Shown: piece after piece, positions 19,970 to 26,463 of the stretch
Layout of the letters: every line of letters begins with the position of its first letter
How positions within the stretch are numbered: the first letter of the stretch is position 1
NCBI GenBank assembly: GCA_003862195.1
Contig: QOUO01000003.1
Span: 35,879-99,878 of the forward strand
Source of the DNA: Coriobacteriaceae bacterium
GTDB lineage: Bacteria > Actinomycetota > Coriobacteriia > Coriobacteriales > Atopobiaceae
Reading direction: 5' to 3'
DNA length: 64,000 nt
Position numbers and translations under genes: made by a program
The notes under the pieces: model-generated
What the model saw: only the letters and a program-made list of their open reading frames with translations
Databases searched by the model: none
What the model was told of the DNA's origin: nothing

Positions 19970-22738
19970 CTACTCCCCGAGCTTCTTGGGGCCGCCGTTG
20001 GAGTTGATCTTCGCCTGAGCGCCGGCAAGACGCGCGATGGGCACGCGGTACGGCGAGCAGGAGACGTAGTCAAGGCCAAGGTCGTAGTACATCTGGATGG
20101 AGTCGGGGTCGCCACCGGTCTCGCCGCAGACGCCGCAGACGATCTTGTCGTTGGCCTCGTGGCCACCCTCGACACCCATCTTGACGAGCTTTGCGATGCC
20201 GTAGTCCAGCGTCTCGAACGGGTTGGACTTCAGGATCTTCTTCTTGAGGTACAGGGGTACGAACGCGCCCTCGACGTCGTCGCGAGAGTAGCCGAAGCCC
20301 ATCTGCGTGAGGTCGTTGGTGCCAAAGCTGAAGAAGTCGGCATACTTGCCGATCTCGTCGGCGGTGACGGCGGCACGCGGAATCTCGATCATGCAGCCGA
20401 CGGGGATGTCAAGATCGACGCCGGTCTGCTCGGCGACGGAGGCGATGGTCTCCTCGATCTGGTCGCGCTCGACCTTGAGCTCCTGCCAGGTGCCAACCAG
20501 CGGGACCATAATCTCGGGCCTGGGGTCTAGACCGCGCTTCTTGAGGTGCGCTGCGGCGCCGGCGATGGCGCGAACCTGCATCTCGGTGAGCTCGGGGTAC
20601 ACGATGCCCAGACGGCAGCCACGCAGGCCGAGCATCGGGTTGGCCTCCTGGAAGGAGTCCAGACGGGCGAGCATATCGCGACGGGCCTTGAGCTGGGTCT
20701 CGTTCTCGCCACGGTCCTCGGCGTGAGCCAGCGCGACGGCGTAGTCACGCGGGTTGTCCAGGAACTCGTGCAGAGGCGGATCGAGCAGACGGACGATGAC
20801 GGTCTTGCCGTCCATGGCCTCGAACATTCCGAGGAAGTCGTCGGTCTGGGCCTTCAGGAGCTGGCCGAGAGCGGTCTGCTTGTCGCCGGTGCGGTCGGCG
20901 AGGATGAAGGTCTGGATGATCTGCTTACGGTCGCCCAGGAACATGTGCTCGGTACGGTCAAGGCCGATGCCCTCGGCGCCGAAGTCACGGGAGAGCTTGG
21001 CGTCAGCCGGGTTGTCGGCGTTAGCGCGGACACCGAACAGGCGGCCACGGGAGGCGTCGTGACGGACGTCGTCGGCCCACTCGAGGATGGTCTCGAGATC
21101 GCCGGTGAGCTCCGGGCGAACCAGGGGCACCTCGCCCAGGATGACGTCGCCGGTCGTACCGTTGATGGAGATGACGTCACCCTCGTGCAGGACGATGTCG
21201 GTGCCGGTGATGACGCACTCCTTGGCCTTGGCGTCGATCTTGAGCGCCTCAGCGCCGCAGACGCACGGGGCACCCATGCCACGGGCGATGACGGCCGCGT
21301 GAGAGGTCTTGCCGCCGTGAGACGTGAGGATGCCCTCGGCCGCAACCATGCCCTTGAGGTCGTCAGGAGTGGTCTCCCAGCGAACGAGGATGCAGGGCTT
21401 CTCGATGTTGTGGTAATGAACCGCAGCGTCGGAGGAGAACACGACGGCGCCAACTGCAGCGCCAGGGCTGGCGTTCATGCCCTTGGCGACTACGTCGAGC
21501 TTCGCCTTCGGGTCGAACTGCGGGTGCAGCAGCTGGTCGAGCTGAGCGGGAGCGACGCGCATGATCGCCTGCTCCTTGGAAATGCGGCCCTCCTCGACCA
21601 TCTGCATAGCGACCTTGAGCGCGGAAAGCGCGGTACGCTTGCCGACACGGGTCTGCAGCATCCAGAGCTTGCCCTCCTGGATGGTGAACTCGAGGTCCAT
21701 CATGTCAGCGTAGTGATCCTCGAGGATCTCGAAGACGTGATAGAGGTCCTTGCCTGCCTTCTCGAGACCAGGGGTCTTGGGGAGGTCGGCGATGGGCTCG
21801 GTGTTACGGATGCCCGCGACGACGTCCTCGCCCTGAGCGTTGACGAGGAAGTCGCCATAGCGCTCGTTGGTGCCGTCGGCCGGGTTACGCGTGAAGGCGA
21901 CGCCGGTCGCGGAGGTGTTGCCCATGTTGCCGAAGACCATGACCTGCACGTTGACGGCGGTGCCGAGCGTGTCGTCGATCTTGTTCTGCTTGCGGTACAG
22001 GATGGCGCGCGGAGTGTTCCAGGAGCCGAAGACGGCCTGCTCTGCGAGACGGAGCTGCAGGTAAGGATCCTGCGGGAACTCGGCCTTGCCGTTCGGGGCG
22101 ACCTCGGGGTGAGCCTGGGAGTCGACGTTCTTCGCGAAGATGTCCTTGAAGGTTGCGGTGAGGTCCTTGAGGTCCTCGGCGGTGAGCTCGGTGTCGAGCT
22201 TTACGCCCTTCTCCTCCTTCTTCTCGTTGATGGCGTCCTCGAAGAGCTGACCATCAACGCCCATGACGACGTCGGAGAACATCTGGACGAAGCGACGGTA
22301 GGAGTCCCAGCCGAAGCGCTCGTTGTTCGTCTTCTTGATGAGGCCCTGGACGGAGTCGTCGTTGAGGCCGAGGTTGAGGACCGTGTCCATCATGCCGGGC
22401 ATCGAGAAGGGAGCGCCGGAGCGGACGGAGACGAGCAGCGGGTCGTCCTTGTCGCCGAGCTTCTTGCCCATGCGATTCTCGAGGTCCTTGCGGTAGACGT
22501 CGATCTCGTCGAGAACGCCGTCAGGCCACACGTTGCCAGCGCTGGAATATGCAACGCAGGTCTGGCAGGTGATGGTGAATCCCGGAGGAACAGGAAGGCC
22601 AATGTTTGCCATCTCGGCAAGGTTCGCGCCCTTACCACCAGTGATCCACTTGGCCTCGTCAACGGTCTTGCCGGCGACTTCGGTAACGTTGTTACCGTTT
22701 TCGTCAACGCCGAATTTGTACACGTGCTTTTCAGCCAT
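19970..22738 (-). CDS. ppdK: Pyruvate, phosphate dikinase
   Basis: PPDK interconverts pyruvate, ATP and Pi with PEP, AMP and PPi; in anaerobes it often works in glycolysis or gluconeogenesis. The 922-aa protein has an N-terminal ATP-grasp domain (ITGGKGANLAEM, VRSGAPFSMPGMMDTVLNLG split as SGAPFSMPGMMDT), the central phosphohistidine domain GGKTSHAAVIARGMGAPC with His480 preceded by Thr478, and a C-terminal PEP-binding TIM barrel (GIGLDRTEHMF, LGLRGCRLG, SFGTNDLTQMGFGYSRDD split as FGTNDLTQMGFGYSRD, CGVCGETGGDP). Thr478 corresponds to the regulatory Thr phosphorylated by PPDK regulatory proteins in other organisms. The start is the ATG preceded by GGGGTG; an open frame to 22930 reads through the leader. 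The gene upstream on the same strand is a half-length regulator, but a terminator separates them. Confidence 0.97.
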   Translation of the reverse strand: MAEKHVYKFGVDENGNNVTEVAGKTVDEAKWITGGKGANLAEMANIGLPVPPGFTITCQTCVAYSSAGNVWPDGVLDEIDVYRKDLENRMGKKLGDKDDPLLVSVRSGAPFSMPGMMDTVLNLGLNDDSVQGLIKKTNNERFGWDSYRRFVQMFSDVVMGVDGQLFEDAINEKKEEKGVKLDTELTAEDLKDLTATFKDIFAKNVDSQAHPEVAPNGKAEFPQDPYLQLRLAEQAVFGSWNTPRAILYRKQNKIDDTLGTAVNVQVMVFGNMGNTSATGVAFTRNPADGTNERYGDFLVNAQGEDVVAGIRNTEPIADLPKTPGLEKAGKDLYHVFEILEDHYADMMDLEFTIQEGKLWMLQTRVGKRTALSALKVAMQMVEEGRISKEQAIMRVAPAQLDQLLHPQFDPKAKLDVVAKGMNASPGAAVGAVVFSSDAAVHYHNIEKPCILVRWETTPDDLKGMVAAEGILTSHGGKTSHAAVIARGMGAPCVCGAEALKIDAKAKECVITGTDIVLHEGDVISINGTTGDVILGEVPLVRPELTGDLETILEWADDVRHDASRGRLFGVRANADNPADAKLSRDFGAEGIGLDRTEHMFLGDRKQIIQTFILADRTGDKQTALGQLLKAQTDDFLGMFEAMDGKTVIVRLLDPPLHEFLDNPRDYAVALAHAEDRGENETQLKARRDMLARLDSFQEANPMLGLRGCRLGIVYPELTEMQVRAIAGAAAHLKKRGLDPRPEIMVPLVGTWQELKVERDQIEETIASVAEQTGVDLDIPVGCMIEIPRAAVTADEIGKYADFFSFGTNDLTQMGFGYSRDDVEGAFVPLYLKKKILKSNPFETLDYGIAKLVKMGVEGGHEANDKIVCGVCGETGGDPDSIQMYYDLGLDYVSCSPYRVPIARLAGAQAKINSNGGPKKLGE

Positions 22739-22885: not shown

Positions 22886-22923
22886 AAAAAAGGTCGTTAG
22901 CATCCACTCAGACGCTAACGACC
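22886..22923 (-). terminator. Terminator between the regulator fragment and ppdK
   Basis: Minus-strand arms GGTCGTTAGC (22914-22923) and GCTAACGACC (22892-22901) form a 10-bp stem followed by TTTTTT. It ends the long rpsP-to-regulator transcript 49 bp past the last stop. Confidence 0.88.
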
Positions 22924-22971: not shown

Positions 22972-23376
22972 TTAAATCTCCTGGACGTCACTGTCCACGC
23001 GGCGACCCACGACGAGCTTCGGCTCCTCGCCGGTGAGCGACGATAGCACCGTGATTGCCGGCCCAAGCAGGTCGATGGAAGGAACGCCGCGCTTGTCGAG
23101 CTCGCGACGGATGTCCCTGCGAAGGTTGCGGTCGACGATCGTGTGGAACACGGCTACGGGGATGCCCTCCTCGATGTTCTCGTCCAGGTACTTGACGACC
23201 GTATCGAGGTTCCTCACGTTGCCGATGCTCTTGATGATGACGCTGTCCTCGCTGAACTGGTCGGCCGCCGCCTCCACGACGCCGGTTGCGGTCTTGCCGC
23301 GAGCGTCAGAGATGACGATCACGACGGGAGTCTGTACGTCAAAGATGTCCTCGTCCATACCAGCCTCGTCTCCCAT
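22972..23376 (-). CDS. N-terminal domain only of a PPDK/PEP-synthetase regulatory protein (DUF299 family)
   Basis: Full-length DUF299 proteins (about 270-280 aa) are bifunctional kinase/phosphorylases that switch PPDK or PEP synthase off and on by modifying the Thr next to the catalytic His. This 134-aa product matches only their N-terminal half: VVIVISDARGKTATGVVEAA, VRNLDTVVKYL, AVFHTIVDRNLRRDI, and GVPSIDLLGPAITVLSSLTG. The C-terminal kinase domain with its P-loop (GVSRTSKTP-like) is missing. The frame ends in VDSDVQEI and a terminator begins 49 bp later, so no second half is encoded nearby. Start is the ATG with GGAGG upstream. It is the last gene after glyS and the next gene is ppdK, so the link to PPDK is supported by position. 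Either it is a reduced regulator with another activity, or a remnant. Confidence 0.8.
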   Translation of the reverse strand: MGDEAGMDEDIFDVQTPVVIVISDARGKTATGVVEAAADQFSEDSVIIKSIGNVRNLDTVVKYLDENIEEGIPVAVFHTIVDRNLRRDIRRELDKRGVPSIDLLGPAITVLSSLTGEEPKLVVGRRVDSDVQEI

Positions 23377-23436
23377 ATCGATACCTCCTCGCCGGAGGAA
23401 AATCCCCCGCATGATGGATAAGCAGCTTTTCCTATC

Positions 23437-25533
23437 CTACTTCTTCTTCGAGAGCGCGCCAATGTTGGCGACACCGCTGAACACCGCAGCGAACCTGTTG
23501 AGAAGCCTCAGGCGGTTCTCCCTTACCACAGTGTCCTCGTCCATGACGAGTACGTCATCAAAGAAACGGTCGATTGGCTCACGTAGTTCGGCGAGAGCCT
23601 TGCAGGCGCCCTCGTAGTCATGCTTCGAGAGCGCTTCCTCCACGCTTTCGTCACCCTTCCTACATGCGGCGAGGAGTGCCTTCTCGGCGTCGCCCATGAT
23701 CGACTCATCGACGTCGGTGCCGAGCGACTTGTCACCGAGGTGCGCGGCGCGCGCATAGGCCGTGGCGAGGTCGTCGAAGAGCTCGGGCTCGTTCTTGCGT
23801 GCGTTCTCGAGGGCGTGTGCGCGCTCGAGGAACTCCTCGGGATCGATGACGCCGACGCTGGAGACCGCCTCGATGGTGTCGGGAGAGATCTTCTCGTCCT
23901 TGGCGATGGTGTTGAGCCTGCCGGCGAAGAACTTCTGGACCTCGGCCTCGACCGCATCCTTGTCGAACATAAGCCCCTGCTCTGCATAGGCGTCCAGGGA
24001 GACGGAGATGAGCGACTTGAGCGAGACCTCGGGCATCGTCCTGAGCATGGAGATGATGCCGATGGCGGAGCGCCTCACCGCGAACGGGTCGGAGGAGCCG
24101 GTCGGCGGCTCGTTGATCGCAAAGAGGCCGCACACCGTGTCGAGCTTGTCGGCGATGGCGACGCACTTGCCGACGACGCCGGCGGGCATGTCATCGCCCG
24201 CGAAGCGGGGACGATAGTGGTCGCGGATGGCCTCCGCCACCTCGTCGGGCTCGCCGGAGGCCTTGGCGTAGTAGCCGCCCATGACGCCCTGCTGGCTCGT
24301 GAACTCGACGACGGCCTGCGTAACGAGGTCCGCCTTCGCGAGGTGAGCGGCCCTCTCTGCCATGCGCACGACGTCCTCGCCCTGGCCGTCCTCGCGTGCG
24401 ACCTCGGGGGCGATCTTCTCCATGCGGAGGGTCTTCTGGTACACGGTGCCGAGCTTCTCCTGGAAGACGACGTCCTTAAGCTTCTCGACGTAGTCTGCGA
24501 GCGGCTTCTTGAGGTCCTCCTCGTAGAAGAACTTGGCATCGTCGAGGCGTGCGCGCACTACGCGCTCGTTGCCGTCGATCACGCGCTCGTCGTTGCGGCG
24601 GGCGGTGTTGGAGACCACCACGAACTCGCGGGTCAGGTTGCCATTGGCATCGTAGATCGGGAAGTAGCGCTGGTTGGAGAGCATCGAGTCGCAGATGATC
24701 TCGTTGGGGACCTTGAGGAACTCCTCGTCGAACTTGCCGACGAGCACCGAGGGGTACTCCGTGAGGTTGACGACCTCGTCGAAGATCCTCTTGGGCGTGT
24801 CCACGTGAGCTCCGCCACGCTCCTGCTCGACCTGCTTGATGCCGTCGAGGATGACCTTGCGGCGCTCGTCCTCGAAGAGCACGCCAGCCTCACGGCAGGT
24901 CTCGACGTAGCTTGCGGGGTCCTTCACCAGGTGCTCGCCGGGGCCGAGGACGCGGTGCCCGCGCGTGACGTGGCCGCTCGTGACGTCGGCGTACTTGACG
25001 GGGACGACCTCCTCGCCGAGAAGCGCACAGATCCAGCGGATAGGCCTCACGAACGTCTGGTGCTCGGAGCCCCAGCGCTGCGAGCGGTAGTTGGGCCACT
25101 CGAGGGACGCGATGGAGTCCTCGGAGAGCTTGGTCAGGATGGGGAGCGCCGGCTGGGAGGGCACGTTCTTCTCCGCGAAGACGTACTCGCGGCCGTCGGC
25201 GTCCTCGCGCCTCACGAGCTCGCTCGCGGCGAGGCCGAACTTGCGGGCGAAGCCTGCCGCTGCCTTGGTGGGGTTGCCGTCGGCGTCGAACGCGATGTTG
25301 GCCGCGGGGCCGCGCTTGACCTCGTGGACCTCCTGCGTCGCGGTCGCGACGTCCTTCACGATGACCGTGAGCCTGCGCGGCGTGCTCATGGCGCTCACGG
25401 CGCCGTGGCTGAGGCCCGCCTCGTCAAGCCCCTTGCCGACGAGCTGGCCGAACTGCTTTATTGCATGGATGAGAGGAGCGGAGGGCATCTCCTCGGTACC
25501 AACCTCCAGCAGGAAGTCCAGAGTCTCTGCCAT
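23437..25533 (-). CDS. glyS: Glycyl-tRNA synthetase beta subunit
   Basis: The beta subunit of the alpha2beta2 GlyRS carries tRNA-binding and editing-like domains. The 698-aa protein opens with FLLEVGTEEMPSAPL, has RRGPAANIAFD-like (KRGPAANIAFDADGNPTKAA split as KRGPAANIAFD), EWPNYRSQRWG, FVRPIRWICALLG, the central HD-like region and the C-terminal anticodon-binding part (FFDDVLVMDEDTVVRENRLRLL split as FFDDVLVMDED). Its ATG immediately follows the glyQ stop, so the subunits are probably translationally coupled. Confidence 0.96.
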   Translation of the reverse strand: MAETLDFLLEVGTEEMPSAPLIHAIKQFGQLVGKGLDEAGLSHGAVSAMSTPRRLTVIVKDVATATQEVHEVKRGPAANIAFDADGNPTKAAAGFARKFGLAASELVRREDADGREYVFAEKNVPSQPALPILTKLSEDSIASLEWPNYRSQRWGSEHQTFVRPIRWICALLGEEVVPVKYADVTSGHVTRGHRVLGPGEHLVKDPASYVETCREAGVLFEDERRKVILDGIKQVEQERGGAHVDTPKRIFDEVVNLTEYPSVLVGKFDEEFLKVPNEIICDSMLSNQRYFPIYDANGNLTREFVVVSNTARRNDERVIDGNERVVRARLDDAKFFYEEDLKKPLADYVEKLKDVVFQEKLGTVYQKTLRMEKIAPEVAREDGQGEDVVRMAERAAHLAKADLVTQAVVEFTSQQGVMGGYYAKASGEPDEVAEAIRDHYRPRFAGDDMPAGVVGKCVAIADKLDTVCGLFAINEPPTGSSDPFAVRRSAIGIISMLRTMPEVSLKSLISVSLDAYAEQGLMFDKDAVEAEVQKFFAGRLNTIAKDEKISPDTIEAVSSVGVIDPEEFLERAHALENARKNEPELFDDLATAYARAAHLGDKSLGTDVDESIMGDAEKALLAACRKGDESVEEALSKHDYEGACKALAELREPIDRFFDDVLVMDEDTVVRENRLRLLNRFAAVFSGVANIGALSKKK

Positions 25534-26463
25534 CTAGGCCACCTCCCCCTTCGTGTGCTTGTCGTCTTGCTTGCTTGCCACCTCGGCAAGGTATGCCTCG
25601 CAGCAGGCCTTTGCGATGGTGCGGACGCGCAGGATGTAGTTTGCGCGCTCCGTTGCGGATATCGCGCCGCGCGAGTCGAGGAGATTGAACGCGTGCGAGC
25701 ACTTCATGACGCAGTCGTAGGCGGGAAGCGGCAGCTTGCGCTCGAGGCAGGCGTTGCACTCGCGCTCGTAGTCGTCAAACTTGTTGCGCATCATCTCGAC
25801 GTTGGCGACCTCGAAGTTGTACGTGGAGAACTCGAACTCGTTCTCGTGGAACACGTCGCCGTACGTCATGGGCGTGCCGTCGGGCAGGTAGCTCCAGACG
25901 AGGTCGTACACGGAGTTGACGCCCTGGGCGTACATGGCGATGCGCTCGAGGCCGTAGGTGATCTCGACGGGGACGGGGTCCACCTCGAGGCCGCCGACCT
26001 GCTGGAAGTACGTGAACTGCGTGACCTCCATGCCGTTGAGCCAGACCTCCCAGCCGAGGCCCCACGCGCCGAGCGTCGGGGACTCCCAGTCGTCCTCAAC
26101 AAAGCGGACGTCGTGGTCGTTGGGGTCGAGGCCGATAGCGGCGAGCGAGCCGAGGTACAGGTCCTGGGAGTCAACCGGGGACGGCTTGAGCAGCACCTGG
26201 AACTGGTAGTAGTGCTGCAGGCGGTTGGGGTTGTCACCGTAGCGGCCGTCGGCCGGACGGCGGCAGGGCTGCGGGTAGCAGGTCCTCCACGCCTGGGGCC
26301 CAAGGGAGCGCAGGAGCGTCGCGGTGTGGAACGTGCCGGCGCCTACCTCGCTGTCGTAGGGCTGCATGACCGTGCACCCCTGTTCTGCCCAGTACTTCTC
26401 GAGCGTCAGGATTATCTCCTGAAACGTAAGCGGCTTGTCGCTCATGTGCTTGTCTGCTCCCAT
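25534..26463 (-). CDS. glyQ: Glycyl-tRNA synthetase alpha subunit
   Basis: The catalytic class II subunit that activates glycine. Clear motifs are [27 protein letters not shown]-like [27 protein letters not shown]-like [27 protein letters not shown]-like [13 protein letters not shown], and [16 protein letters not shown]. Length 309 aa is slightly above the usual 290-300. Two ATGs 18 bases apart are possible starts; the outer one is reported. The two-subunit GlyRS is shared with Firmicutes and many other bacteria, whereas most Actinomycetia use the single-chain form. Confidence 0.96.

Follow-up and report, generated by a model that had tools for sequence, protein, structure and literature searches.

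The window, by which we mean the whole 64,000-nucleotide stretch of DNA analysed, carries on its minus strand the gene order glyQ-glyS-RP-ppdK. The conserved upstream neighbours glyQ (25534..26463, identified by synteny) and glyS (23437..25533, identified by PF02092 and synteny) encode the alpha and beta subunits of glycyl-tRNA synthetase, and ppdK (19970..22738) encodes a pyruvate phosphate dikinase (PPDK) of 922 aa that scored 1208 bits against TIGR01828 (cut-off 843). Between glyS and ppdK, the gene at 22972..23376 encodes a DUF299 protein of 134 aa comprising the N-terminal domain only, hereafter the short RP. It starts with an ATG at 23376, and reading of the sequence placed an AGGAGG ribosome-binding site (23384..23389, minus strand) 7 nt 5' of this codon.

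The short RP matched PF03618 (Kinase/pyrophosphorylase, DUF299) with an E-value of 2.3e-16 and 60.7 bits (cut-off 23.5), aligning only to positions 1-107 of the 256 in the profile, which correspond to the N-domain, while its match to NCBIfam NF003742 (positions 6-115 of 270) gave 59.3 bits and did not reach the full-family score (cut-off 225). The protein stops before the C-terminal P-loop domain (GVSRTSKTP-type) that holds the catalytic site in PDRP/PSRP proteins, and no second PF03618 match was found in the genome of the window (2.42 Mb, 99% complete). Residues 23-30, SDARGKTA (23287..23310, minus strand), form the N-domain loop motif SDxxGxT(A), whose Ser, Asp, Gly and Thr are kept in the full-length, short and paralog sets. 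An earlier note, made from the sequence alone, had placed here about 130 residues of N-terminal domain with a good ribosome-binding site and conserved N-terminal motifs, and each of these points was borne out.

The 233 nt that separate the short RP from ppdK in the window are too few for a catalytic domain and include an intrinsic-terminator-like hairpin (22892..22923, minus strand). RP-ppdK distances were 128-412 nt for short and 145-361 nt for full-length genes, a similar spacing that leaves no debris of a C-domain. Whether short or full, the primary RP copies of the 100 loci compared with the window follow the glyQ-glyS-RP-ppdK order, with few exceptions in which ppdK lies elsewhere, and the short gene takes the slot of the full-length one. 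The terminator was rejected as a mark of the truncation, because terminator-like hairpins occur in a similar share of short (25/63) and full-length (5/12) loci in a cruder scan.

Spread of the short form and the missing C-terminal domain

PF03618 matches were obtained in 131 of 140 genomes of Atopobiaceae, the family that includes the nearest named relatives, Parafannyhessea (for which the lineage was checked), Olsenella, Olegusella, Thermophilibacter and Tractidigestivibacter. We then took the C-terminal domains of full-length RPs from within the family, made a C-domain profile of them and searched the 140 genomes with it. The profile matched exactly 15 genomes, those with a full-length RP; the remaining 125, among them the genome of the window, gave no DUF299 C-terminal P-loop domain (E<=0.1, six frames). 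Because the profile matches nothing in these 125 genomes, an unlinked DUF299 kinase half is absent from them, and the earlier note's suggestion that the short protein might partner such a half fails for any half of DUF299 type. Other Coriobacteriia, where the note had proposed to look for the same form, gave full-length-size matches outside Atopobiaceae, with a best E-value below 1e-54 in every listed genome with a match, and in the sample of Actinomycetota each match outside the family lay in an open frame of at least 268 aa. As far as sampled within this phylum, the short form is thus confined to Atopobiaceae. Our search of open-licence papers found no description of a single-domain DUF299 form.

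The intact target threonine of PPDK (Thr478, codon 21305-21307, minus strand, in the motif GGK-T478-S-H480-AAV) would favour a short RP that teams up with a separately encoded kinase half. The earlier note was correct that Thr478 and His480 are both present, but the observation is uninformative: TSHAA is part of the catalytic motif of PEP-utilising enzymes and is invariant in genomes with full-length and short RPs alike. This invariance, which also led us to reject a change of the PPDK target site in short-form genomes, weighs together with the empty C-domain search against a separate kinase half, which we consider very improbable; a kinase unrelated to DUF299 may act on PPDK. Since the C-domain is gone and none is encoded elsewhere in the genome, the DUF299-type phosphorylation switch would be absent, and PPDK would no longer be inactivated and reactivated through its threonine. 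We also rejected the idea that regulation became needless because PPDK substitutes for a missing pyruvate kinase. The latter enzyme is found in 101 of 101 good genomes, with short or full RP, so that the view of PPDK as simply an obligate glycolytic enzyme without regulation does not hold.

The position of the truncation was equally regular. Short RPs stop 4-12 residues after the last conserved Gly of the N-domain (2-3 in genus g9), and in the predicted model of a full-length relative, in which the last N-domain helix spans residues 92-102 and the first C-domain helix 118-132, this end point maps to the lower-confidence interdomain linker. The short RP is therefore a domain-boundary truncation and not a random frameshift. 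It is also under purifying selection and not decaying, with dN/dS values of 0.05-0.16 in genus g1, to which the window belongs (comparable to the 0.01-0.18 of ppdK and the 0.08-0.19 of glyS), and below about 0.25 in the other short-form genera tested. The loss of an essential catalytic domain could be taken to indicate a non-functional remnant, produced by recent truncation or sequencing error, but the same form in more than 100 genomes, the selection acting on it and its clean end at a domain boundary make this almost certainly wrong. The two outcomes that the earlier note had named as fatal to a fixed single-domain form were not observed: two further species of genus g1 carry the short form, so close relatives do not all have a full-length orthologue, and no reading frame brings back a C-terminal domain. 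The note's own preference, a fixed form rather than debris, thus has strong support from a family-wide gene that is selected and ends at a domain boundary.

Flanking-gene trees placed genus g9, which carries the short form, among full-length genera with full support. A single truncation event was rejected by the AU test on the glyQ-glyS-ppdK trees, where a clade uniting every short form was excluded (p-AU 0.0026), whereas the N-domain tree (108 columns) did not reject their monophyly (p-AU 0.59). The phylogenies favour at least two truncations at the glyS-ppdK locus; given the result of the N-domain tree, the short gene alone may instead have been transferred into genus g9. In the N-domain tree, the few full-length genes found within otherwise short groups (G005, G009 and G058/G059) fall together with other full-length genes, a pattern that would fit recombination at the locus. 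In G058 and G059 (loci L074 and L076), a diverged full-length DUF299 gene with the P-loop GLSGSAKTP is kept with glyS, and ppdK lies more than 400 kb from both; glyS of this genus groups with short-form genera.

Fold, conserved residues and proposed role

In its AlphaFold2 model (pLDDT 92.9), the short RP forms a complete domain of alternating beta-alpha type with the fold of the PDRP N-domain. A Foldseek comparison of this model with 5D0N, the structure of maize PDRP bound with AMP and the sole PDB match at E<=0.001, gave an E-value of 5.4e-06 and a TM of 0.70 of the query, and the profile match extended over residues 126-236 of 5D0N. Full-length and short sets both keep S23, D24, G27, T29, Q40, F41, T79, R86, D102, G105, P119 and G124. 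Arg50 is relaxed in the short forms, so some of the original contacts may be lost. In the maize protein, AMP is reportedly located in the N-domain loop.

The loop of the window, SDARGKTA, looks like the final part of a Walker A motif, which could suggest that the short domain gained catalysis of its own, for example as a phosphatase or kinase acting on PPDK through a GKT-like loop. The Lys of this loop is not conserved, Glu being the commonest residue with Lys and Asp also seen, and we rejected a Walker-lysine gain as a new active site for this reason. Moreover, the N-domain of maize PDRP is described in a 2022 review as having the fold of the C-domain and a phosphate-binding loop but no active site, with a proposed allosteric role (PMC9138534). 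Acquired catalysis is accordingly improbable.

Our proposal, which we put forward as an evenly balanced judgement, is that the short RP is a stand-alone, non-catalytic, adenylate-sensing subunit that acts on PPDK or another enzyme by binding alone, the Thr switch having been lost. The gene between glyS and ppdK has lost its catalytic C-terminal P-loop domain and survives as a lone N-domain that would keep the ancestral AMP/phosphate-binding pocket (the SDxxGxT loop) and a docking face, from which we infer the adenylate-sensing function. This small subunit would then bind PPDK or another metabolic enzyme and alter its activity. From its conserved residues, the short RP probably binds adenylate, and synteny makes an action on PPDK plausible.

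The short RP shares with bacterial and plant PDRP (DUF299, PF03618; maize 5D0N/5D1F) its ancestry, N-domain sequence and fold, SDxxGxT loop and ppdK-adjacent locus, but it is without the entire C-terminal P-loop kinase/phosphorylase domain (134 aa against about 270-280). With the PEP synthase regulatory protein PpsR/PSRP it has the superfamily N-domain in common, as the weak NCBIfam match indicates, and it differs in the missing catalytic domain and in its neighbour, which is PPDK and not PEP synthase. Maize PDRP2 could be seen as a parallel, a DUF299 form with altered activity, as the short RP is predicted to be. PDRP2 keeps both domains and kinase activity and is mainly without Pi-dependent activation (PMC6019023), unlike the short RP, which is without all catalysis-bearing sequence. 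A known family of PPDK regulators thus has a kinase-less form in Atopobiaceae, gut and oral bacteria that dropped the catalytic half and still have the other half under selection, which suggests that the lone N-half works by itself in a manner not previously described. The N-domain, whose role in maize is only proposed to be allosteric, becomes available for study as a natural single-domain protein, and annotation of such 130-aa proteins as kinase/pyrophosphorylase should be avoided.

Candidate partners and N-domain-only paralogs

PPDK is, we infer, the most likely partner of the short RP. Among the 101 good genomes of Atopobiaceae, 99 have a PF03618 gene and 98 retain PPDK, and the two nearly always co-occur. 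Some genomes may count against this partner: in G017 and G024-G026 the short RP stays with glyS and ppdK is at another place, and G030 has PPDK without an RP. The genome of G030 is reduced (1.0 Mb) and encodes no DUF299 protein of any length, and G071 has neither PPDK nor a DUF299 protein.

In addition to the copies at the ppdK locus, we found diverged N-domain-only paralogs (RP2) at 19 loci in 18 fetched genomes. They branch outside the ppdK-locus clade in the N-domain tree and have a longer tail (15-22 residues), and they keep nearly all of the 12 conserved N-domain residues. In one type, with the motif SDMTGET, a glycyl-radical-enzyme activase gene precedes the paralog by 0-55 nt and a PFL-like enzyme is encoded divergently. 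This arrangement holds for 11 of 11 loci (L149:5991-6434, L105, L122, L127, L142, L144, L147, L152, L154, L159 and L160), often with a DeoR regulator downstream of the paralog. Another adjoins or is near deoC, named from sequence, in 5 loci (L077, L091, L099, L101 and L109), where it is accompanied by a divergent GntR-UTRA regulator, a fructose-6-phosphate aldolase/transaldolase-like gene, or both.

As RP2 genes sit beside activase and deoC loci, the N-domain can stand alone by other metabolic enzymes, which suggests that it is able to serve partners besides PPDK, and PPDK need not be the target of the short RP either. These paralogs, and the short RPs that still adjoin glyS where ppdK has moved, speak for a general adenylate- or phosphate-sensing adaptor with a partner other than PPDK, found near ppdK by inherited gene order only; most genomes keep the short RP by ppdK and the two genes co-occur in the family, and we consider such an adaptor rather unlikely. 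Broadening our proposal of a binding subunit, the DUF299 N-half could be a self-sufficient adenylate-sensing module, freed more than once and joined to PPDK (without phosphorylation), to a glycyl-radical enzyme system and to deoC/transaldolase operons, a tentative generalisation that we hold to be possible, if somewhat doubtful. One genome, G019, combines a full-length RP at ppdK with a short RP2 by deoC, and a third type of N-domain-only paralog is present at L095 and L096, with an nrdG-like activase gene at a distance of about 1 kb.
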